Assembly: GCA_016873715.1 (NCBI GenBank)
Contig: VGWF01000009.1
Location: 1 to 59,229, forward strand
Source: Lentisphaerota bacterium
GTDB lineage: Bacteria; Verrucomicrobiota; Kiritimatiellia; PWTM01
Reading direction: 5' to 3'
DNA length: 59,229 nucleotides
A program made the translations under genes and the position numbers. The notes beneath the pieces were generated by a model. The model did not search any database, was not told where the DNA came from, and saw only the letters and a program-made list of their open reading frames with translations. This document shows positions 24,329-53,869 of the stretch, piece after piece; the first letter of the stretch is position 1; each line of letters starts with the position of its first letter.

Positions 24329-24409
24329 CGGGGTTCAGGTGCCGGTTCCGGCGAGCTTGAACCCTGGAACCGGATGCTCCTCCCCTCCTCCCCTGACACC
24401 TGAAACCCG
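24329..24409. repeat. Nested inverted repeat of TGAAACC/CTGACACC type
   Basis: Outer arms of 13 bp (CGGGGTTCAGGTG and CACCTGAAACCCG, one mismatch) enclose perfect 8-bp inner arms (CCGGTTCC / GGAACCGG at 24342-24349 and 24366-24373). The whole sits in the 109-base gap between the MORN and zinc-ribbon genes. The wording CTGACACCTGAAACC is like low-complexity intergenic repeats I recall from related genomes. It could fold as a terminator or RNA hairpin. Confidence 0.5.
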
Positions 24410-24419
24410 ACACCTCCCC

Positions 24420-34133: not shown

Positions 34134-37100
34134 TCAGCGACCGGCGAAGCAGGTCACGGCGCCGTCCTCGGTTGCGAGGAGAACGCACCCGCGCGCCAGG
34201 GCGATCCCGTTGAACACCGGCGGCGACGGAAGCTGCGTCTCCATCCGCTTCGCGCCCGAGAGGGAGTCCGCCACGATCAGCCGCCCGCCCTTGCGTCCCT
34301 CGAACGCGCCGAGCGGGTCCTTCGGGTCGACGACGTCCGGCGGCCCCGCGACGACCAGGCTCCCCTTCGCCAGGGCCATCGCGCGGATGCGCACCGGCAC
34401 GCGCTCCATCCACGAGTTCTTCCCGCCCTCCAGGTTCCTGGCGAACAGGAGGTATCCCTTGGCGCCGGGCGTGAAGAAGACCGTCGGATCGAGCCCCTTG
34501 AGCGAGTCGAACATGCGCACGTAGTAGGCGGACGTGCGGTCCCGGACGAGCAGCCGGGCGTGCTCGCCGCCGGCCGTCCACGGCGTGCGCTTGAAGTAGG
34601 TGTCGTCGAGGTAGCCGGCCGGGGCCTCGACCTCGGGCTTCCCGCCCACGGGTTCGAGCGCCGGGCTGAAGATCTCCGACCTCATCGCGATCCGGTCGTC
34701 GACGGCGACGAGGATGTCCGCCAGCGCCCCCTGCGGCAACCCGAGGTTCTGCGCCATCTCCGAGACATCGACCTCCGGCCCCTCCAGCCGGCGCTCGTGG
34801 CGCAGTTCGCCGGTGGCCGCGTCGACCGCCACGATCCGCAGTCCGCCGTCGAGGTGCGACGACCGCCCCGCGACGGCGTAGGCGAGACCCGCGCGCACGA
34901 GCACGCTGCCGCTGACCGGCCACGGCGACTCGAGCTGGCCGAAGGCGCCGATGCGGCGTTCCTCCGGCGCCGCGCGGAACCGCCAGGCGAGCGCCCCGTC
35001 GGCCGCGCGCACGCAGTAGATCCATCCGTCGGAGGAACCGAACAGGACGGCCCCCTTCTCGACCGTCGGCGGCGAGTCGATTCGCGCGCCGGCGGCGAAC
35101 GTCCACAGCGTGCGGCCGTCCTTCGCGTCGAGACACGCCACCCGGTGTTCGTCGATCAGCGACACGAACACCCGCCCGCCCGCGGCGACGGGCGCCGAGA
35201 CCCGCCGGCCCGGCGTGACGCGCCACGCCTCGCGGATCGACGCGTCGAGACGGGTCGACGAGGCGCCGGAGCGCGTGGCGTCGGACCGGAACGTCGGCCA
35301 GTCCTCCCCGTCCGCCGCGGGTCCGTCGCAGGCGCCGAAGGCCGGGCCGCGCTCGACGACGGGCCCAGGGGCGGCCGGGGGCGCCCGCGCCGGCTCCGCG
35401 GCTGCGAGGGCGTTCATGCCCGTCAGCTTCTCCTCGATGTAGCACTGGCACGGGTGCGGCGGCGCGTAGTGCAGGCCGTTGGCGGGCATCATGCCGACGT
35501 GGCAGGTGCCGCGGACCCAGTTGTTCACCGAGTGCGGTCCGCCCTCGAGGTTCACGAACTCGGTGCCGCGGCGGCTGGCAAGGATGTAGCGCTCCGTCGC
35601 CTTGTTGCGGTAGCAGCGGTGATGGTGGTTGGCCTTGAACAGCGTCCCGAGCGGCACGCTCTTCTTCCGTTCGCCGGTCCGCAGGTCGTAGCCGTGGGCT
35701 TCGTCCGGGAAGACCGAGGATTCGTTTCGCTTCCCGCCCCCCGCGAGGGCCTCCTTCTTCAGATCCGGGGTCCAGGTCCAGACCAGGCCGTCGATGACGA
35801 ACACGTCCTTCCACTCGTACCACAGGTGGCCGATGTACTTCTTCGGCTGCCGCCAGAGGACGCGGCCGGTGGCGGCGTCGAACGCGGCCAGGCTGTTGGG
35901 GCTTGCGTGCAGCACGACGCCGTCGGTGACGATCATCGTCCCGTTCCACAGGTTGCTCGACGCGCTCTGGCCGCCGGCGTTCGCATCGGCCGGGTCCATC
36001 GGGAAGGCCGCGCGCCACCGCTCGGCGCCGCTGCCCGCGTCGAGCGCGACCAGCGCGTCGCCGTCGATCAGCGCCACGGTCCTCCCGTCCGTCGAGAGAT
36101 TCAGCGCCGGGTCGAGCGGCACCGGATCCGTCCCGCCGCCGGACTCTTTCCACTTGATGTAGTCCGTGATGCTGCCGCGGTAGGCCTTGGCGGAGGTCCA
36201 CAGCCGCCGCCCGGAGGCCGCGTCGACCGCCGCGACGCGCCCGCCCGCCTGGCGTTCGAGGCCGAGCGCGAGGATCAGCCGGCCCCCGGCGGCCAGGATC
36301 TCGCCGGTCCGTTCCGTGCCCGCGTAGGTCTGCAGGATCGCGCCCGTGCGGGCGTCGAGCTCGGAGACCGGCGCGGTGTAGCCGAGCGTGACGTAGACGC
36401 GGTCGGCGGCGACGACGAGCCGCTTCTGGATGTTGAGGGGGATGTCGCTCGGCCGCGGGCTGAACCAGTGGCCGCGCCATTCGCGCCAGCCCCAGCGGCG
36501 GATCGGCACCTTCCACAGGTCCACGCCGTTGAAGGCGTCGCGCGCGGCGAGAAACCACTGGTCGGGAAGCCCGTGATCGCCCTCGAGACTATTGGGGGCC
36601 TCGTCGACGATGTAGAAGAGCCGCCCCTGCGCGGTGACGAGCGTGCTGATGCTCGAGTCCGTCTCGTGCGAACGCTGCCACAGGGGGCCGGCGACCCACT
36701 GGTAGCGGACGGGCGGGCCGACGACGCGGTCGCGCGCGACGGGGTTGCCGTCGGCGCCGTGAAGGTAGTGCGTCCATTCGTCGATATCCTCCGGCCATGC
36801 CTTGCGCGCGCGGACCCAGACGCCGCCCGCCTCGACGATCCCGACATCCGCCGCACCCAGCGCCCGAAGCCGCTCCGCCAGCGGCTCCGCGGCCTCGCGC
36901 GACCCCGCGGCGATCCAGACCGCCCCGAGAGGAGCGACAACGCGCAAGGCCTCGTCCGGCGAGGGCGTGAGGGCGTGGGGAGGTGTGGCGGTGTGGCGGT
37001 ATGGCGGTGTGGCGGTGTGGCTGTATGGCTGTGTGGAGGTGGGGCCGTGTGGCGGTGTGGCAGTGGGGATGTGTGGGGGTGTGGCGGTGGGGACGTGTGG

Positions 37101-37556
37101 CGGTGGGGCGGTGGGGATGTGTGGAGGTGTGGCGGTGGGTCGGTTGTCTACCGGCCGTGGGTTGTTGGATGTTGGTTGTTGGCTGTTGGATGTTCGATGT
37201 TCGCTTCTGGCATCGATCACGAGCAGGTTGACGAGGTTGGCGACGTACGGCAGCCGGCCGTCCGCGAGCGTCTCCGCCGAGACGGTGCCGCAAAGTCCCT
37301 TCGCCCGGATCTCCGCACGGAGCGCGTCGCGGGATGGCGCATCGGCCGCGAGGCAATGCACGACGAACGGACCCTGCGCCGCGAGATCGACGGCGAGGGC
37401 CGCGTTCGGCGAGCCAACCACCGAGCACACGCCCCCCGCCGCACCGCTCCATTTCACCATCTCCGCCGCCGAGGGCCCCGCCGCATCGCCGCGGCCGGCC
37501 TGAAGGCCCAGCGCGAGCAGGACGGCCGGAACCCACCCTCCGACCCGGATCGTCAT
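34134..37556 (-). CDS. Secreted methyltransferase-like/PQQ-propeller protein A, with repeat insertion
   Basis: 1140-aa exported protein. A signal peptide (1-26) is followed by a degenerate methyltransferase-like domain (30-230; motif I reads SVVGSPNAALA, lacking glycines). The rest is PQQ-binding-like beta-propeller blades, recognised by repeated YVTLGYTAPVSELDARTG-type units. A conserved core HHHRCYRNKATERYI, RGTCHVGMMPANGL and PPHPCQCY is shared with the other three paralogs here. Residues 117-199 are a low-complexity insertion (SNSQQPTSNNP, then TATPPHIPTAPPPH-type repeats) within the methyltransferase-like part, between strands that are contiguous in the paralogs. It encodes DNA repeats at 36979-37207. 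ATG overlaps the HEAT-LamG stop (ATGA). Function unknown; such proteins could bind sugars or a cofactor outside the membrane. Confidence 0.85.
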   Translation of the reverse strand: MTIRVGGWVPAVLLALGLQAGRGDAAGPSAAEMVKWSGAAGGVCSVVGSPNAALAVDLAAQGPFVVHCLAADAPSRDALRAEIRAKGLCGTVSAETLADGRLPYVANLVNLLVIDARSEHRTSNSQQPTSNNPRPVDNRPTATPPHIPTAPPPHVPTATPPHIPTATPPHGPTSTQPYSHTATPPYRHTATPPHALTPSPDEALRVVAPLGAVWIAAGSREAAEPLAERLRALGAADVGIVEAGGVWVRARKAWPEDIDEWTHYLHGADGNPVARDRVVGPPVRYQWVAGPLWQRSHETDSSISTLVTAQGRLFYIVDEAPNSLEGDHGLPDQWFLAARDAFNGVDLWKVPIRRWGWREWRGHWFSPRPSDIPLNIQKRLVVAADRVYVTLGYTAPVSELDARTGAILQTYAGTERTGEILAAGGRLILALGLERQAGGRVAAVDAASGRRLWTSAKAYRGSITDYIKWKESGGGTDPVPLDPALNLSTDGRTVALIDGDALVALDAGSGAERWRAAFPMDPADANAGGQSASSNLWNGTMIVTDGVVLHASPNSLAAFDAATGRVLWRQPKKYIGHLWYEWKDVFVIDGLVWTWTPDLKKEALAGGGKRNESSVFPDEAHGYDLRTGERKKSVPLGTLFKANHHHRCYRNKATERYILASRRGTEFVNLEGGPHSVNNWVRGTCHVGMMPANGLHYAPPHPCQCYIEEKLTGMNALAAAEPARAPPAAPGPVVERGPAFGACDGPAADGEDWPTFRSDATRSGASSTRLDASIREAWRVTPGRRVSAPVAAGGRVFVSLIDEHRVACLDAKDGRTLWTFAAGARIDSPPTVEKGAVLFGSSDGWIYCVRAADGALAWRFRAAPEERRIGAFGQLESPWPVSGSVLVRAGLAYAVAGRSSHLDGGLRIVAVDAATGELRHERRLEGPEVDVSEMAQNLGLPQGALADILVAVDDRIAMRSEIFSPALEPVGGKPEVEAPAGYLDDTYFKRTPWTAGGEHARLLVRDRTSAYYVRMFDSLKGLDPTVFFTPGAKGYLLFARNLEGGKNSWMERVPVRIRAMALAKGSLVVAGPPDVVDPKDPLGAFEGRKGGRLIVADSLSGAKRMETQLPSPPVFNGIALARGCVLLATEDGAVTCFAGR
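36979..37207. repeat. In-frame low-complexity tandem repeat tract
   Basis: Degenerate tandem copies of GTGTGGCGG and GTGGGGATGTGTGG (36979-37139) followed by TTGGATGTTGGTTGTTGG and TTCGATGTTCG units (37155-37207). It is read in frame in propeller protein A as TATPPH and SNIQHP-like repeats. The same two repeat families appear twice in sulfatase 4. Confidence 0.85.
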
Positions 37557-38952: not shown

Positions 38953-41900
38953 TCAGCGGTCGCCGTAACAAAGCACCCGGCCATCCCGGGTGGAAAGGTA
39001 GAGGGCCCCGCCGGCGGCGGACATGCCGTCGAAGACGGGCATCGACGGAAGGTCGCATTCGGACACCGTCTTCCCGTCCGACACGGACACCACGCGCAGC
39101 CGGACGCCCTTCTCCCCGCGGAACCCCGCGAGCGCTTCGTCGGGATTCTCGAATGCCAGCACCTGCGGATCCTTCCGTGCCACATCGGGCGGACCTGCAA
39201 CGACAATCTGGTCGGGAGTCAGAACCATGGCGCGAACGATCAACGAGGCCTTGTCGCTCCAGGTTGCCTCCGGTTTCGACGATCGGGCCGATGGACTCGC
39301 CGCCGTCTTCGTCCGCGCTTTGCGACGGCCCTCGGTGGAATCGGGGGCGGCGACCGCCGGCGTCTCCGACGGCCGGGGCATCCGGAACAGATGGTAGGCG
39401 TCCGCCCGATGGCCGGTCGGTCCGCCGCTGATCGTCACGCGTCCGTAGCCGAACGCGTCGGTCTCGTTGAAGCACAGGATGCGACCGAACGGGACCTTTG
39501 CGGCCGCGCGCGCCCATCCGCCCCAGCCGGCGCCGACCTCGTCGCCGATCAGCCAGTACGAACGGACAAACCACTCCTCGCCGAGGAAGCCCATGATGGA
39601 GAAGAGGTGCGGTTTCGCCTCGGTCACCTGGTTCAGCTCGAGATCGAAGCGGCAATGCTTCAGGAAGACGGACTCGCCGTCGCCGCTGAGCAGGTCGGTC
39701 GTCGTGCCTTCCATGTCGAAGCCTCTCGCCCCTTCCTTGCCGGTCTGGCGGCCGGTCTCGGGATCCAGCAGGGAAACGACCTGATGCGACAACGCCTTCC
39801 CCGTCGCCGGATCGATCCGGTAGAACGCGAGGCCCCCGTCGAGGTACGTCGAGCGGCCCGCCGTGGCGTAGACGGCGTCGTTCTGCACGAGGACGGCGCC
39901 GTGCACGGGCCAGGCCGATTCGAGCTGGTCATAGGCGGCGGCGCGACGGTCCCTGGGCGCCGCGCGAAACCGCCAGGCGAGCCGGCCGTCGGAGGCGCGC
40001 AGGCAGTAGACCCAGCCGTCCGCGGCCCCGAAGAGGACCCGGCCCCGGTACAACGCGGGCGCGCTGTCAATCCGTCCGCCGGCGGTGAAGTGCCACTGCG
40101 CCTTCCCGTCCGCGGCGTTCAGCGCGTACACCGTGTGCGCGTCGATCGACGCGACGCAGACCCGGCCGCCGGCGATCACCGGCTGCGTGAGCCGCCCGCC
40201 GATCGCGGCGGTCCAGCGGGGGGAGGGCGACGGCGACACGGAGGCGGTCGCGGCCCCGCTGCGGGCCGCGTCGCGACGGTACGCCGGCCAGTCCGCCGGG
40301 TCCGGCGCGACGGAATCCGCCTCCGCCATCTCCGCGTAGGCCGGCCCCTTCTCGAGCGCGGGGGCCTCGTCGAACGTCATCCGCGCGACCGGCCCGCGCT
40401 GCGGCGCCGCGGCGAAGAAGCCCTCGAGTTTCACGCGCGAGAAGCAGGCGCACGCGTTGGGCGGGGCGTAGAGCAGCCCGTTGCACGGCAGGATCCCGTA
40501 CTGGCAGGTGCCGCGGATCCAGCTGTTGTTGCCGAGCCATCCCCGGTCCAGGCTGACGACCTCGATCCCGGAGCGCCCGGTGTAGATGTTCCGTTCGGTC
40601 GCCTTGTTCCGGTAGCAGCGGTGATGCGCCATGGCCACCGGCGCGCCCTTCCATTCGAGCGCCTGCTTCAGCTCCCCCGTCCGGAGATCGTAGCCCTTGA
40701 AGTTGGAGCCGACCCATGCCGTGTCGCCCACGACGAAGAGGTCCACGGGAGAGTTGTAGCCCTCGCTGCAGTCGGCCGACCAGAGCTCGCGCCCGGTGTC
40801 GGCCGCGTACGCGCGCAGCACGCTCTTCCCGCTCCGGTCGAACCCGGCCTCGTTCCACCCGTTGATGCCCCAGTCGATGCCGTGGGTCGCGGGCGACGCG
40901 GCGGAGGCGACCCGGTCGGCGCACAGCAGCACGCCGCCGGCGGCGACGACCGTCGGGGCCGAGAAGGACATGCGCCGGGTGAGGGTCGTCCGCGGGGTCC
41001 GCCACACTTCCCGGCCCGTTCGCGCGTCGAGGCGGACGGCGCTGTCCGTGCCCAGGAAGAACACGCCGCCGTCCTTCACCGCCAGCGACAGCGGCATGAC
41101 GAAGTCGGCGCCGTCGCCGTCGTGCCGCCAGAGCATCCGGCCGGTATCCGCCTCGACCGCGGCGATGAACCGGAAGCCGCTCGGCGGCGGCTCCCCGCGA
41201 TCGAACAGCCCCCCGCCCTCGCGACGGACCTCCGAGGTGCCGACCACGAGGTACAGGATCCCGCCGTCCAGCACGATCTCCTCGGTCCGCCCGGTGCCCT
41301 CGTAGACCCGCAGCAGCCGGCCCGTCGCCGCGTCGAGGGCGCTGACGGGCGCGGAGAGGCCGAGCGTGACGAAGACGCGCTCCCCATCGGTCGCCAGCCG
41401 GCGCGGCAGGTGGACCGGGCCGGAGCGGAAGTGGCGCAACGTGTCCGACCAGTCGGGGATCGCCTGCTTCCACAGCAGCGTCCCGTTGAACGCATCGCGG
41501 GCGGCGAGCGTCCACTGGCCCTCGAACCGGATCGAGGCCAGCGGGGCCTCGTCCGCAATGAAGAAAAGCCGGCCCTTCGCGGAGACCGCGGCGCTCATGC
41601 TGGCGAGTTCCTCGTGGCTCCGGCCCCACCGCGGCGACGCCACCCACTGAATGGAGCGCGGCTCGGCGCAGACCCGGTCCGCCGCGACGGCGTTGTTGTC
41701 CGGACCGTGGAGGTACTGGGGCCATCCGTCGATGTCCGCGGGCCACGGCTTGACGATCTTCTCGCCGCCGAGCAGCGCCACCCCCAGCGGGGCGAGCACG
41801 CGCAGGATCTCGGCGCGGGGCACGCCGACCGGCTGCGGGGAGACGATCAGGTTCACGAGGTTGTCGACGTAGGGCAGATGCGTCCCGTCATACCGGTCGA

Positions 41901-42177
41901 CGGACACGGCGCCGTAGCCGCCCGCGGCCAGGAGGGTCTCCCGCGCCGCCGCCACGCGGGCCGGGTCGGTGTCCAGCGCATGGACCAGGTACCGCTCGTT
42001 CACCCGCAGGGCGGCCGCAAGCCGCCCGTCGCCGCACCCGAGCTGCACGACCAGGCCCCCTTGGACACCGGAGGCCGCGAGAAGCGCCCCCGCCTCGTCC
42101 TGCACCGTCGCGGCGCCGGCCTGCAGGCACAAGGCCAGCGCGATGAACCCCGCCAGGATCCGTTCGCGTCGTCTCAC
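38953..42177 (-). CDS. Secreted methyltransferase-like/PQQ-propeller protein B
   Basis: 1074-aa exported protein. A signal peptide (1-22; RRRERILAGFIALALCLQAG) precedes a methyltransferase-like domain with intact glycine motif I (VVQLGCGDGRLAAALR) and acidic motif II (HALDTDPARVAAARE). LPYVDNLVNLIV follows as motif IV-like. PQQ-propeller blades make up the remainder with HHRCYRNKATERN, RGTCQYGILPCNGL and PPNACACF conserved. S-adenosylmethionine is not known outside the membrane, so the fold may have another ligand. I start at GTG 42177 (GGGGAGG 8 bases upstream). A GTG at 42198 overlaps the previous stop (GTGA) and would add 7 residues. C-terminal ~100 residues include a Lys/Arg-rich linker. 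Confidence 0.85.
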   Translation of the reverse strand: MRRRERILAGFIALALCLQAGAATVQDEAGALLAASGVQGGLVVQLGCGDGRLAAALRVNERYLVHALDTDPARVAAARETLLAAGGYGAVSVDRYDGTHLPYVDNLVNLIVSPQPVGVPRAEILRVLAPLGVALLGGEKIVKPWPADIDGWPQYLHGPDNNAVAADRVCAEPRSIQWVASPRWGRSHEELASMSAAVSAKGRLFFIADEAPLASIRFEGQWTLAARDAFNGTLLWKQAIPDWSDTLRHFRSGPVHLPRRLATDGERVFVTLGLSAPVSALDAATGRLLRVYEGTGRTEEIVLDGGILYLVVGTSEVRREGGGLFDRGEPPPSGFRFIAAVEADTGRMLWRHDGDGADFVMPLSLAVKDGGVFFLGTDSAVRLDARTGREVWRTPRTTLTRRMSFSAPTVVAAGGVLLCADRVASAASPATHGIDWGINGWNEAGFDRSGKSVLRAYAADTGRELWSADCSEGYNSPVDLFVVGDTAWVGSNFKGYDLRTGELKQALEWKGAPVAMAHHRCYRNKATERNIYTGRSGIEVVSLDRGWLGNNSWIRGTCQYGILPCNGLLYAPPNACACFSRVKLEGFFAAAPQRGPVARMTFDEAPALEKGPAYAEMAEADSVAPDPADWPAYRRDAARSGAATASVSPSPSPRWTAAIGGRLTQPVIAGGRVCVASIDAHTVYALNAADGKAQWHFTAGGRIDSAPALYRGRVLFGAADGWVYCLRASDGRLAWRFRAAPRDRRAAAYDQLESAWPVHGAVLVQNDAVYATAGRSTYLDGGLAFYRIDPATGKALSHQVVSLLDPETGRQTGKEGARGFDMEGTTTDLLSGDGESVFLKHCRFDLELNQVTEAKPHLFSIMGFLGEEWFVRSYWLIGDEVGAGWGGWARAAAKVPFGRILCFNETDAFGYGRVTISGGPTGHRADAYHLFRMPRPSETPAVAAPDSTEGRRKARTKTAASPSARSSKPEATWSDKASLIVRAMVLTPDQIVVAGPPDVARKDPQVLAFENPDEALAGFRGEKGVRLRVVSVSDGKTVSECDLPSMPVFDGMSAAGGALYLSTRDGRVLCYGDR

Positions 42178-42194
42178 CGCGGTTGCCTCCCCGT

Positions 42195-45100
42195 TCACGG
42201 CCCGCCCGTCCCCAAACACCGCAGGCTGCCGTCCTCCATCGAAACATACAGGCGGCCGGCGGCGGCGATGAGGCCGTCGAAGACCGGCGGGGCATCGAGG
42301 GCGAGTTCGGCGAGCTGCTTCCCGTCCTTCGCGGCGAAGGTCAGGAGTTTCGCGCCCTTGCGTCCCTCGAACGCCGCGTACGGGTCCTTCTCGTCGAACT
42401 CGTCCGGCGGACCGGCGGCGAAGAGCGCGTCGCCGGCCTTGACGAGGGCCCGGATGCGCACCGGGATCCACGTCTTCCACAGGGGCGGCTCGGCGCGCGT
42501 GTAGCCGGTCATCTTGTCGAGGCCGAAGGCGGGGTTCCCGAGCGTCTCGACGGCCCGGCCCCCGCCGCGCTCGTACGCCGACTGCGGCAGCCATTCGACG
42601 GGCGGCCGCGAGCCCTCCTCGCCGACGATCTGCGGCTCGTTGCCGTTGCGGTCCGCGTAGAGCAGGTAGCCGTCCTTGCCGGGAAAGAACATCGGGCTGT
42701 GGACGTTCCGGCGGACGAACGGCTGCACCGCGTAGGTGGCGGTCTCGCCGACCGCAAGGATCTGGCCGCTCTTCGGCGCCTGGATGGCGAGCTGGAAGCC
42801 GGGCCATCGTTTCGCGTACATCCAGAACGCGCGGTTGTACCACGATCCGTCGAGCAGGCCGGCGGTGGAGAAGACGTGCAGGCCGACGTCCGCCTCGCCC
42901 TTGGACGACAGGTCGGGGTAGTCCTTCTCCTCAAGCGACGCCGTCAGCCGCTTGTGGCGCATGTAGAGGAACCCGCCTTCGGCGACGAGCACGTCGGAGT
43001 TGGCGCCGCGGATGTAGAAGGCGACGTCGCGCACGAGGTTCGTGCCGTCCGGGAAGGGGCCGGACAGCGTCGCGCGGTGCACGATGCGGCCGGTGGCCGG
43101 GTCGAGACCCCACACGCGGATGCCGCCGTCGAGGTAGGTCGAGCGCCCCGCCGTCGCGTAGGCGACGCCGTCGTGGACGAGCACGCTGCCGTGAACCGGC
43201 CACGCCGACTCCACCTGGTCGAAGCTGCCGATCCGGCGGTCCGCCGGCGCGGCGAGGAAGCTCCAGGCCAGGGCCCCGTCCGTTGCGCGAAGGCAGTAGA
43301 CCCGGCCGTCCGCGCTGCCGAAGAGCACACGCCCGCCGCTGACGGTGGGCGGCGAGTCGATGCGGCCGCCGGCGACGAAGGTCCACGCCGGCGCTCCGGT
43401 CGCCGCGTCGAACGCGTGCAGCGTGTGGGCGTCGACCGCGGCCGCATAGACCCGACCGCCCGCGCACACCGGCTGGGTCAGGCGTCCGCCGATCTTCGCG
43501 CGCCAGCGTTCGGCCACGTCCGTTCCCACCGGCGCGGCCGTGGCGCCATGGCGCGCGGCATCGCGCCGGTACGTCGGCCAGTCCGCCGCGCCGTCCCCGG
43601 GCGATCCGTCGGCCACCGCGCCATAGGCGGGACCCGTTTCGATCCGCCGCGCATCCGGGACCGGCGTCACGGCCGCGGCGGCCTCCGCGGAGGCGAGGGC
43701 CGTGAAGCCGAGCTGCTTCGCGCCGGGCTGGCAGAAGCACTGGTCCGGCGGCACGTACAGGAGGCCGTTGCACGGGACCATCCCCATCCGGCACGCCCCG
43801 CGCACGAAGTTGTTCTGCACGTGCGCGGCGCCGCGGAGGTCGAGGAATTCGGCGCCCTCCATCGAGGCGATGAGGTAGCGGTCCGTCGCCTTGTTGCGGT
43901 AGCAGCGGTGATGATGCTCGGGGCTCAGAAGGTCGGGCGCGAAGATCCGTTTCCGCTCCTCGCCGGTGCGGAGATCGAATCCGACGGCCAGGACGTGCGC
44001 GCTCTTGCGGCCGCCGGGCGAGCGGTCCTTCTCGACGTGGAACATGCCGGGCCAGACGGTCCCGTCGACGACGAAGAGGTCCGTTCCGAAGACCGCCTCG
44101 CCGAACTCCGTCTCCTTCCGCCACAACCGGCCCCCCGTGGCCGCATCGAGCGCTTCGACGCCCTTGCCGGCGCGCAGGACGATGACCCCGTCCTTCACGA
44201 CCAGGGTCTGCACGCCGCGGGCCGACCCCGACGCCTTCCACAGATCGCGCCCGGTCCTCAGGTCCGCCGCCGCCAGACCGGGGCCGGCGTCGTAGATCAC
44301 GCGGCCGCCCCCGATCACCAGCGAGAGGCCGCGCAACGTGCCGAGTTCCTTCCGCCAAAGCACGTCCCCCTTCGCCCCGTCGACCGCGGTCAGCACGCCG
44401 CCGCCATCCTCCGCCTGCGCCTTCCCCTTCCGCTTCGCCGGGGCGTCGTCGCCCGTCTTGGAATACGCGAGGACGACGCCGTCCGCGGCGACGATCTGCC
44501 GCACGGGTTCCGTGCCTTCGACCGTGGCGAGGGTCGTCCCCGTCGCGGCGTCGAGGATGGTCAGCGGGGCGCGGTAGCCCAGGGTGACGTAGAGCCGGTC
44601 GCCCTGCACGACCACGCGACGGTGGTTCTCGTCGGGCACGACCGTCCGCCCGCCGGTGATCGTCGTCCAGTCCTTGCCCTCGAACCGGTCCGCCGCCCAC
44701 TCCGGCCAGCCCCAGGGCCCGACCGGCCGCTTCCACAGCAGCGTCCCGTTGAACGCGTCGCGGCAGACGAGCGACCACCGCTCCGGAAGCCGCTGGTCGG
44801 TGATGCCGACCAGGCCCTCGTCGAGCAGGTAGAACACGCGACCCCCTCCGGAGACCATCGCCTCGAAGCCGGACGGCGTCTCGTGGCTGCGGAGCCAGAG
44901 CGGGGGGGCCATCCACTGCATGACCCTCGGCGGGCCGACGCGCTCGTCGGCGGCCACCGCGTTGTTGCCGGCGTCGTGCAGGAAATGCGTCCATTCGTCG
45001 ATGTCCGCCGGCCGCGGCTTGACCGTCCGCTTCCCGCCGACCCATGCGACGCCCCCGGGGGCAAGGACGCGAAGGATCTCCGGCATCGGCGCGACGGCGG

Positions 45101-45479
45101 GGTCGCCCGCGACGACCAGGTTGACCAGGTTGTCGGCATACGGCAGGCGCGCGGGGTCGGCCCGGCGGTCGACGGACACCGGCCCGTAGGATCCCCGCCC
45201 CGCGATCTCCGCGCGCGCCGCGGCGACCTTTGCGGGATCGGTGTCCAGCGCATGCACGACCCATGCGTCGCCCGCCCGAAGCCCCGCGAGCAGGGCGGCA
45301 TCGTCGCAGCCGATCACCGCGACGAGTCCTCCCTTCACGCCGGTCTCCTGAAGGATCCGCCGGGCCAGCGCGGCCCCCGTCTCCGTCCCGGCGGCGGTCG
45401 CATCGCCCGGGGCCGTCGCCGCGTGGCCCGAAGCGGCCAGCGCCGCCAACACCATCACGAGGGAAAGGCGGAGGCTCAT
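42195..45479 (-). CDS. Secreted methyltransferase-like/PQQ-propeller protein C
   Basis: 1094-aa exported paralog of A and B. A signal peptide (1-21) leads to a methyltransferase-like domain whose motif I is degenerate (AVIGCDDAALLAGLR) while motif II (HALDTDPAKVAAARAE) and LPYADNLVNLVV are kept. Propeller blades (LYVTLGYRAPLTILDAATG and similar) follow, with HHHRCYRNKATDRYL, RGACRMGMVPCNGL and PPDQCFCQ in the same order as in the paralogs. GGAG lies before the start. It is transcribed ahead of propeller B, with the stop overlapping a possible GTG of B. The promoter at 45532-45560 sits next to MITE copy 2. Confidence 0.87.
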   Translation of the reverse strand: MSLRLSLVMVLAALAASGHAATAPGDATAAGTETGAALARRILQETGVKGGLVAVIGCDDAALLAGLRAGDAWVVHALDTDPAKVAAARAEIAGRGSYGPVSVDRRADPARLPYADNLVNLVVAGDPAVAPMPEILRVLAPGGVAWVGGKRTVKPRPADIDEWTHFLHDAGNNAVAADERVGPPRVMQWMAPPLWLRSHETPSGFEAMVSGGGRVFYLLDEGLVGITDQRLPERWSLVCRDAFNGTLLWKRPVGPWGWPEWAADRFEGKDWTTITGGRTVVPDENHRRVVVQGDRLYVTLGYRAPLTILDAATGTTLATVEGTEPVRQIVAADGVVLAYSKTGDDAPAKRKGKAQAEDGGGVLTAVDGAKGDVLWRKELGTLRGLSLVIGGGRVIYDAGPGLAAADLRTGRDLWKASGSARGVQTLVVKDGVIVLRAGKGVEALDAATGGRLWRKETEFGEAVFGTDLFVVDGTVWPGMFHVEKDRSPGGRKSAHVLAVGFDLRTGEERKRIFAPDLLSPEHHHRCYRNKATDRYLIASMEGAEFLDLRGAAHVQNNFVRGACRMGMVPCNGLLYVPPDQCFCQPGAKQLGFTALASAEAAAAVTPVPDARRIETGPAYGAVADGSPGDGAADWPTYRRDAARHGATAAPVGTDVAERWRAKIGGRLTQPVCAGGRVYAAAVDAHTLHAFDAATGAPAWTFVAGGRIDSPPTVSGGRVLFGSADGRVYCLRATDGALAWSFLAAPADRRIGSFDQVESAWPVHGSVLVHDGVAYATAGRSTYLDGGIRVWGLDPATGRIVHRATLSGPFPDGTNLVRDVAFYIRGANSDVLVAEGGFLYMRHKRLTASLEEKDYPDLSSKGEADVGLHVFSTAGLLDGSWYNRAFWMYAKRWPGFQLAIQAPKSGQILAVGETATYAVQPFVRRNVHSPMFFPGKDGYLLYADRNGNEPQIVGEEGSRPPVEWLPQSAYERGGGRAVETLGNPAFGLDKMTGYTRAEPPLWKTWIPVRIRALVKAGDALFAAGPPDEFDEKDPYAAFEGRKGAKLLTFAAKDGKQLAELALDAPPVFDGLIAAAGRLYVSMEDGSLRCLGTGGP

Positions 45480-52096: not shown

Positions 52097-53869
52097 CTAT
52101 CGCCGGCCCTCGCGGGCCGGATCCACGGCGACATCGTTGGCTTGCCGTGCGCCGGGCGTGCTGCGGCCGTCGGCGACGATCCGATCGAGCGCCGCCGTCA
52201 GCCGCGCGACGACCTCCGGGTTCGCCGCCGCGACGTTGGTCGTCTCGCCCGGGTCCGCCGCCATGTCGTAGAGCTGCGGCGACTCCGTCCCCCCGCCCTT
52301 GCTCCATCCGCCGCTCCCGGCGCAGAGACACAGCTTCCAGCGCCCGTCCCGGATCGCGAAGCGCCCGCTGATGCTGTGGTGAACGACCGGTGGACGTGGC
52401 GCCTCCGAACGTGGGGCCGTATGGCTGTGTGGCGGTGTGGCAGAAGGGCTGTGTGGCGGTGGGGCGGTGTGGACGTGTGGCGGTGTGGCCGTGGTTCCGC
52501 GTTGGATGTTGGCTGTTGGTTGTTGGTTGTTGGATGCTGGCTCCGCCGTTCTGCCTTCGGTGTTCGATGTTCGTTGTTCGATGTTCGATGTTCCGTTTAG
52601 GGCGTTCCTCGCCGCGCGCAGCGCGGGGAGCAGGCTCACGCTGTCCTCGCCGGCGTTCTCCGGCAACGTCGCGCCGACGATCTCCGCGCAGGTCGCCATC
52701 AGGTCGGTAAGGCAGACGAGCCCGCCGTTCGTCGAACCGGCCGCGACCACGCCGGGCCAGCGCGCGAGGAACGGCACGCGGTGGCCACCGTCCCAGATGT
52801 CCGCCTTGGTTCCGCGGAACCGCGCGCTCGGGAAATGCCCCTGCTTCTCGAGGTTCCCGATCCCCGCCGCGGGCGAGCAGCCGTTGTCGCTGGTGAAGAT
52901 GACCAGCGTGTTCGACGCGGCGCCCGAGGCGTCCAGCGCCGCCAGCACCTCCCCGACCGCCCCGTCGGTCTGCATCACGAAGTCGCCGTAGTCGCCCAGC
53001 CCGCTCCGTCCCTGCCATTCCTTCGAAGGCACGATCGGCGTGTGCGGCGAGCTGAGCGCCAGGTACAGGAAGAACGGTCCTCCGGATTGGATGTCGGGTG
53101 TTGGATGTTGGGCGTTGGGTGCTGGATCCTGAGTACCAGATGTTCGTCGTTGGATGTTGGATGTTGGGTATTGGGTGTTGGATGTTGGATGCTGCCTCCG
53201 CCCTTCGGTGTTCGGTGTTCGATGTTCGGTGTTCGGTGTTCGCCTCAGGACGTACTCCGCCGCATGCCGCGCCAGCCTCGGCAGCATGTCGACCGGCTCG
53301 ACCAGCTCGGTCACGCGGTCGTCGACGAACAGCGACTTGATCATGCGCGCGTGGTGGAAGCCGTAGAAGTGGTCGAACCCGCGCGAGAGCGGGCCGTCCT
53401 CCGTCCGCGCCCCGACCGCCGCCCCGGCGGAGCCGCCCTTCCCCTTCTTGCCGCTCTTCCCCCCGTCGACCGTGAAGCCCAGGTGCCACTTGCCGACGCA
53501 GGCGGAATGGTAGCCGTGCCGCTTCAGCAGCGACGGGACGGTCAGGCGGTCCGCGGCGATCAGCGGCGTCACGTAGTCGTCCAGCACGCCCTTCTGCAGC
53601 CGCGTCCGCCACGCGTAGCGGCCGGTGAGCACCCCGTAGCGCGTCGGCGTGCAGACCGACGCCCCGGAGTGCGCATCGGTGAATGTCATCCCCTCCCGCG
53701 CGATCCGGTCGAGATTCGGCGTCGGGATCCGTCCGCGCTCGGGATTCAGGCACCGCACGTCGCCGTAGCCGAGGTCATCCGCGAGGATGTACACGATGTT
53801 CGGAGGCGGCGAGGCGGCGGCGGACGCGGCGGCAAGGCCCAGGACGGCGAGCAACGGAAGCCTGCGCAT
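52097..53869 (-). CDS. Sulfatase 4 with two repeat insertions (formylglycine-dependent)
   Basis: 590-aa secreted sulfatase. After a signal peptide (1-19) come NIVYILADDLGYGDV and the formylglycine motif CTPTR (Cys73). GKWHLG, ALSSPHTP and TSDNG supply the active site. Two low-complexity insertions interrupt otherwise normal sequence: residues about 210-262 (NTEHRTPNTE, then QHPTSNTQYP-type repeats), just before the PFFLYLALSSPHTP strand, and about 425-488 (SNIEQRTSNTE, NNQQPTANIQ, TATPPHVHTAPPPH), before HHSISGRFAIRDG. Both keep the frame open. Apart from them length is about 475, normal for the subfamily. Close to sulfatase 1 in its N-terminal half. TAGGAGGG precedes the start; the glycosidase gene ends 11 bases upstream. 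Confidence 0.88.
   Translation of the reverse strand: MRRLPLLAVLGLAAASAAASPPPNIVYILADDLGYGDVRCLNPERGRIPTPNLDRIAREGMTFTDAHSGASVCTPTRYGVLTGRYAWRTRLQKGVLDDYVTPLIAADRLTVPSLLKRHGYHSACVGKWHLGFTVDGGKSGKKGKGGSAGAAVGARTEDGPLSRGFDHFYGFHHARMIKSLFVDDRVTELVEPVDMLPRLARHAAEYVLRRTPNTEHRTPNTEGRRQHPTSNTQYPTSNIQRRTSGTQDPAPNAQHPTPDIQSGGPFFLYLALSSPHTPIVPSKEWQGRSGLGDYGDFVMQTDGAVGEVLAALDASGAASNTLVIFTSDNGCSPAAGIGNLEKQGHFPSARFRGTKADIWDGGHRVPFLARWPGVVAAGSTNGGLVCLTDLMATCAEIVGATLPENAGEDSVSLLPALRAARNALNGTSNIEQRTSNTEGRTAEPASNNQQPTANIQRGTTATPPHVHTAPPPHSPSATPPHSHTAPRSEAPRPPVVHHSISGRFAIRDGRWKLCLCAGSGGWSKGGGTESPQLYDMAADPGETTNVAAANPEVVARLTAALDRIVADGRSTPGARQANDVAVDPAREGRR
52410..52594. repeat. In-frame tandem repeat tract 2 of sulfatase 4
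   Basis: GTGTGGCGGTGTGG-type units (52410-52493), then TTGGATGTTGGCTGTTGG and TTCGATGTTCGTTGTTCG units (52500-52594). Same three-part order as the tract in propeller A. Translated in frame within sulfatase 4. Confidence 0.85.
53084..53243. repeat. In-frame tandem repeat tract 1 of sulfatase 4
   Basis: TTGGATGTTGGGCGTTGGG and TTCGGTGTTCGATGTTCG units without the GTGTGGCGG family, read in frame as QHPTSN and TEHRTPN repeats. It is inserted directly before the conserved PFFLYLALSSPHTP strand. Confidence 0.85.

Follow-up and report, generated by a model that had tools for sequence, protein, structure and literature searches.

How can an array of heptanucleotide repeats lie within the reading frame of an enzyme, directly before a strand of its catalytic core, and leave the enzyme apparently intact? 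The question is raised by a sulfatase gene in the window, the 59,229-nucleotide stretch of DNA analysed here. The original prediction described a repeat insertion in the gene, and the analysis found a second one that it had overlooked.

Repeat inserts in an S1-type sulfatase

The gene and its two inserts are as follows.

52097..53869, minus strand: S1-type sulfatase gene, 590 aa (Pfam PF00884, PDB matches, AlphaFold2)
53087..53242, minus strand: insert 1, covering residues ~211-261; sense strand (CGAACAN)n followed by (CCAACAN)n
52403..52597, minus strand: insert 2, covering residues ~425-489; sense strand (CGAACAN)n, (CCAACAN)n and finally CCGCCACA-type octamers

The sulfatase starts at ATG 53869 (residue 1), with the frame open upstream to GTG 53932. 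Its N-terminus resembles a signal peptide and the protein is probably secreted. The PF00884 Sulfatase domain is above the Pfam cut-off (E 2.8e-48), and CTPTR at residues 73-77 is the C-x-P-x-R formylglycine motif. The site residues D31, D32, K127, H129, H276, D328, N329 and K355 are invariant or nearly so in the alignments, and the alignment summary showed that the protein retains all 32 invariant columns of a 60-sequence alignment. The AlphaFold2 model has a pTM of 0.84 and a core pLDDT mostly >95. Foldseek with this model returned S1_15 sulfatases, the match to 7oze (E 1.6e-36) placing it in the sulfatase fold, and the PDB sequence matches are also headed by S1_15 sulfatases. The S1_15-type enzymes (PDB 7oze, 6s20, 9bav) are thus the nearest solved structures in both sequence and fold. 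In the alignments shown, the blocks aligned with them flank the repeat stretches, which fall outside. As predicted, the remainder of the enzyme looks intact. Its catalytic residues are retained, and the enzyme probably still works with the inserts in place.

On the plus strand insert 1 consists of TTGGATG-type 7-bp repeats followed by TTCGGTG-type repeats. Tandem Repeats Finder (TRF) reported period 7 at 53087-53191 (15 copies, 69% matches) and again at 53204-53242 (5.6 copies, 93% matches). Translated in the sulfatase frame the insert begins RTPNTEHRTPNTEGRRQHPTSNTQYPTSNIQ, and it stops just short of GGPFFLYLALSSPHTP, the P of PFFLY being residue 265. The repeats therefore lie directly before PFFLY in an open frame, as had been claimed. 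The claim that this strand bears substrate- and metal-site residues was half right: it leads to the sulfate-site histidine H276, and the metal ligands, in arylsulfatases the equivalents of D31, D32, D328 and N329, lie elsewhere. Insert 2 is also in frame, and the gene has no stop or frameshift.

Both inserts are predicted to be disordered loops. In the model insert 1 loops out as coil (pLDDT 43-59) between helix 192-210 and strand 266-271, with flanks mostly >95, which is the outcome that the original prediction had anticipated. Insert 2 is coil (pLDDT 35-62) between helix 414-425 and strand 495-498. No inverted repeats were found in insert 1, and the insert 2 region has a single 11-nt inverted pair, 95 nt apart. 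A search of insert 1 for RNA structure gave nothing notable (z -0.42), and there was no Rfam family of note.

An ortholog with 65% identity, from an uncultured Lentisphaerae bin (Loclat_bin-07389), lacks both inserts. At the insert 1 site it reads RHAAGYIAERAKSGTPFFLYL where the sulfatase reads RHAAEYVLR-insert-SGGPFFLYL, and at the insert 2 site it reads LLPLLRGADQPVREAVVHHS. The alignment fixes the boundaries of insert 1 and shows its flanking strands unbroken. Insert 2 is also missing from a paralog (L091), and none of the other 13 sulfatases of a 14-member alignment has either insert. The comparison with the 65% ortholog suggests insertion rather than loss, and it is also what the timing of the inserts is judged by. 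The genome of the ortholog has 40 repeat matches elsewhere.

A dispersed heptamer family and its orientation

The repeat is not confined to the sulfatase. The host genome of the window (5.13 Mb, 97.6% complete) has 641 matches to the pattern GTTSGNTGTTSGNTGTTSG, compared with 3 in the reversed control, and 2.67 of the 5.13 Mb contain 84 arrays of at least four units (740 units), compared with 2 in reversed sequence. Insert 1 is therefore not a chance occurrence. The single sulfatase loop that had been described is real, but it is one copy of a genome-wide repeat and one of two inserts in the protein. The units are GTTGGNT, in which N can be any base, and GTTCGNT, which has chiefly A or G at that position. 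Of the 45 arrays with both blocks, 37 have the GG block on the 5' side of the CG block, and a TGTTGANTCCG-like spacer often joins the two. Because of this shared block order and spacer, many arrays seem to be copies of a single composite and not the products of separate local expansion. The lag-7 self-match of array-bearing spacers is 0.49. Where arrays from different contigs align over the greatest length, their identity is only about 76-80%, and no recent near-identical copy or target-site duplication came to light.

Two side observations concern other repeat arrangements. A second dispersed heptamer family, CCTGAAA, has 97 genome matches (at most 2 mismatches) and 0 in the control, and heptamers of this type occur at 24392-24414 of the window, between called genes. 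At C26:14275-15308 and C32:23671-24528 of the host genome (G000), arrays recur every ~160-260 bp, a possible higher-order repeat.

About 90% of the arrays lie outside genes though 89% of the DNA is coding. An automatic classifier that used our own codon-based gene caller, which missed at least one intragenic case, placed 72 of the 84 arrays between genes, 5 at contig ends and 7 inside genes. With 8 of 84 taken as inside and a coding fraction of 0.89, the binomial p is about 1e-63. Inside genes the C-rich strand was the sense strand in 9 of 9 arrays at a lower threshold, and likewise in the array at 36971-37205, which was found by hand. Arrays between codirectional genes split into 22 in the same and 15 in the opposite orientation (Fisher p 0.004 against the 8 intragenic arrays), so the intragenic orientation is not a DNA-level preference. 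The intragenic strand rule agrees with selection at the protein level: the C-rich strand is translated into a polar peptide of the EHRTSNIQHPTSN type and the other strand into a Cys/Trp/hydrophobic one (FDVRCSM or LDVGCWM). Every intragenic array that was found keeps the frame, a statistic that is weaker than it appears because calling an array intragenic required an open frame.

The opposite-oriented arrays between codirectional genes mostly start no more than about 25 nt from a stop codon. The idea that intergenic arrays mark the join between two frameshifted halves of one gene was rejected, as by Pfam the neighbours look distinct in the pairs examined; the flanking genes include two of SufBD type, ResB and cytochrome c assembly genes, and glycosyltransferases and MurJ. 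At L067:5907-6060, ~150 bp between two SufBD-family genes are more than half repeats, beginning directly after a stop codon.

Other host genes, relatives and phages

Further genes of the host carry in-frame arrays, one of them in the window and overlooked by the original prediction.

34134..37556, minus strand: PQQ beta-propeller gene with insert 3 (Pfam PQQ_2, 7.2e-36; paralog comparison)
36971..37205, minus strand: insert 3, octamer array and heptamer array, in frame after LPYVANLVNLLVIDAR
38953-42219 and 42195-45479: paralogs of the PQQ gene
L105:1554-2804: lysine 2,3-aminomutase-like (KamA-like) radical SAM gene, same genome as the sulfatase

The octamers of insert 3 encode TATPPH-type repeats. 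The paralogs align as far as NLVNLLV and then again downstream of the insert. The KamA-like protein has an insert of ~48 aa directly after CRHCTRR, its CxxxCxxC motif, and PDB 2a5h aligns on either side. Arrays were also found in an NTP-transferase/phosphotransferase fusion, the tail of a GH57-like protein, a DUF6259-containing protein, two proteins with no Pfam match and one short ORF.

In a sample of the phylum, 65 of the 388 genomes have at least one repeat match, but just a few show strong amplification. Genes with a similar heptamer-encoded peptide in frame also occur on IMG/VR contigs, which may contain prophage or misassigned host DNA. Four are portal-type phage proteins with the peptide.

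L332:1430-4486 (IMG/VR)
L398:2904-5279 (IMG/VR)
L276:847-2460 (IMG/VR)
L374:3590-5167 (IMG/VR)

In the first three, PHROG or Pfam matches flank or span the peptide, which in L332 and L398 lies between the portal and head-morphogenesis (Mu-F-like) regions; in L374 it is close to the C-terminus. Three primosomal-type phage proteins (L320, L347, L368), on contigs that differ in G+C, have NSQQPTANSQQ or NNQQPTTN around residues 133-176, where interdomain linkers may lie. Of ten IMG/VR candidates scanned with the G-rich strand as sense, only two have a PHROG match, one to tail sheath and one, a short match, to portal protein. The LFVVR match in the tail sheath looks like chance.

Origin of the inserts and known repeat systems

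How did the repeat enter the sulfatase? The likely answer is that copies of the heptamer repeat entered the gene twice, were filtered by selection and are tolerated as disordered passengers. The source would be the dispersed heptanucleotide repeat, normally intergenic, with the sense units CGAACAN then CCAACAN, usually in that order. Because 7 is coprime to 3, all three frames of a strand read as one and the same cyclic heptapeptide. Neither strand of the heptamer units contains a stop, although the TGTTGA spacer can supply one on the G-rich strand. With the C-rich strand as sense, an insertion would produce a stop-free polar peptide rich in Pro, Thr, Asn, Ser and Gln. The survivors of selection would be frame-restoring insertions in the polar orientation, located in surface loops between secondary-structure elements. 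If selection kept such insertions, the inserts would be passengers that are tolerated and disordered. Movement of repeat copies is thereby implied, and the sulfatase loops presumably have no selected role.

Several other sources were considered and rejected. A loop specific to the sulfatase does not agree with a repeat that is genome-wide and with an insert that no aligned relative has. Adenine-directed mutagenesis by a retroelement would target the free position, the only A of GTTGGAT, but a search for reverse transcriptase (PF00078) found no match in the 97.6% complete genome, whereas a diversity-generating retroelement would include one. A Y1 (REP-associated) transposase as mobiliser has three weak matches with no link shown. 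A palindromic mobile element (RPE, MITE or REPIN) would have inverted repeats, and insert 1 has none. It is conceivable, though doubtful, that an uncharacterised mobile heptamer system is spreading among bacteria of this class (perhaps Kiritimatiellia, to judge from the relatives retrieved) and to phages, and by repeated in-frame insertion goes on supplying unrelated proteins with new disordered loops and linkers.

The original prediction had left open whether the loop is tolerated or functional. A functional loop, rich in Pro, Thr, Asn and His and near the mouth of the active site, might assist polysaccharide binding, anchor the enzyme at the cell surface or adjust the range of substrates that it accepts. 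Only some 15 residues separate the end of insert 1 from the sulfate-site His, the enzyme is probably secreted and both inserts are in frame. However, the insert is missing from the 65% ortholog and the rest of the 14-member alignment, and the same peptide occurs in genes as unrelated as lysine 2,3-aminomutase and phage portal proteins. A function for the loop is thus unlikely, and tolerance is far better supported. It is still less probable that the insertions inactivated the sulfatase and that the gene is decaying, with stops and frameshifts yet to accumulate. Redundancy would be plausible, as the host genome has 14 strong matches to the sulfatase, but both inserts kept the frame, no stop or frameshift is present, the 32 invariant columns are all retained, and the modelled core is confident and complete. 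Phase variation, in which gain or loss of one 7-bp unit toggles the sulfatase, can be argued from the unit length, since 7 does not divide evenly by 3 and slippage by a single unit would shift the frame. It is very improbable, as the arrays are interrupted, adjacent units are mostly unlike, which disfavours slippage, and the arrays of the family are mostly intergenic. Misjoining of repeats from elsewhere into the gene during draft assembly hardly merits belief: the 5 of 84 arrays at contig ends indicate that assemblers break on arrays, but inserts 1 and 2 lie inside a 59-kb contig, and on either side of them the gene has the sequence that the ortholog leads one to expect, in the same frame after the insert.

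Entry of the repeat followed by selection describes a route by which non-coding repeats can become parts of enzymes. Since the peptide does not depend on the frame in which the 7-bp unit is read, an insertion in one orientation contains no stop, and frame and fold are all that it has to satisfy. The sulfatase, the aminomutase, the other host enzymes and the phage proteins form a testable natural series of similar disordered inserts. ORF segments of this kind are repeat-derived, and labelling them as domains should be avoided.

Dispersed heptamers are known and in-frame repeat insertions are known; no case of the two together turned up in the literature searched. Among the matches listed for peptide and heptamer strings in the open-licence literature, only GTTGGATGTTGG appeared, apparently as primers of unrelated genotyping or detection studies, and a query for Verrucomicrobi- with heptanucleotide tandem repeat gave no match in that literature. 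Three known systems are the closest. First, the GGGNATC heptamers of Xanthomonas and Nostoc are dispersed (PMC4692102). Like these and the cyanobacterial STRR, the repeat described here is a dispersed 7-bp unit with one free position, enriched outside genes and in many cases located close to a stop codon or between two codirectional genes. Its unit, however, is GTTGGNT/GTTCGNT, without the GGG tract that underlies the quadruplex model (PMC4692102); GGG is present only where a GTTGG unit has N = G (56 of 351). It also differs from both in joining two heptamer blocks into a composite, to which octamers are sometimes added, and in forming stop-free insertions within enzyme cores. Second, the TAACTGA direct repeats of Beggiatoaceae make stops in one orientation and lie mostly just upstream of start codons, the in-gene cases being mostly at protein ends (PMC4679880). 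The two share dispersed heptamers in distant lineages and a single orientation inside genes. In contrast to TAACTGA, GTTGGNT/GTTCGNT is stop-free on both strands, yet is read in genes only from the strand that encodes the polar peptide, and it occurs in protein interiors too. Third, the Rickettsia palindromic elements, as described in PMC10969869, are palindromic, about 150 bp long and encode a conserved peptide; there too, in-frame repeats occur in unrelated genes and are thought compatible with protein function. Insert 1 differs from them in being a direct heptamer array, without inverted repeats or notable RNA structure.
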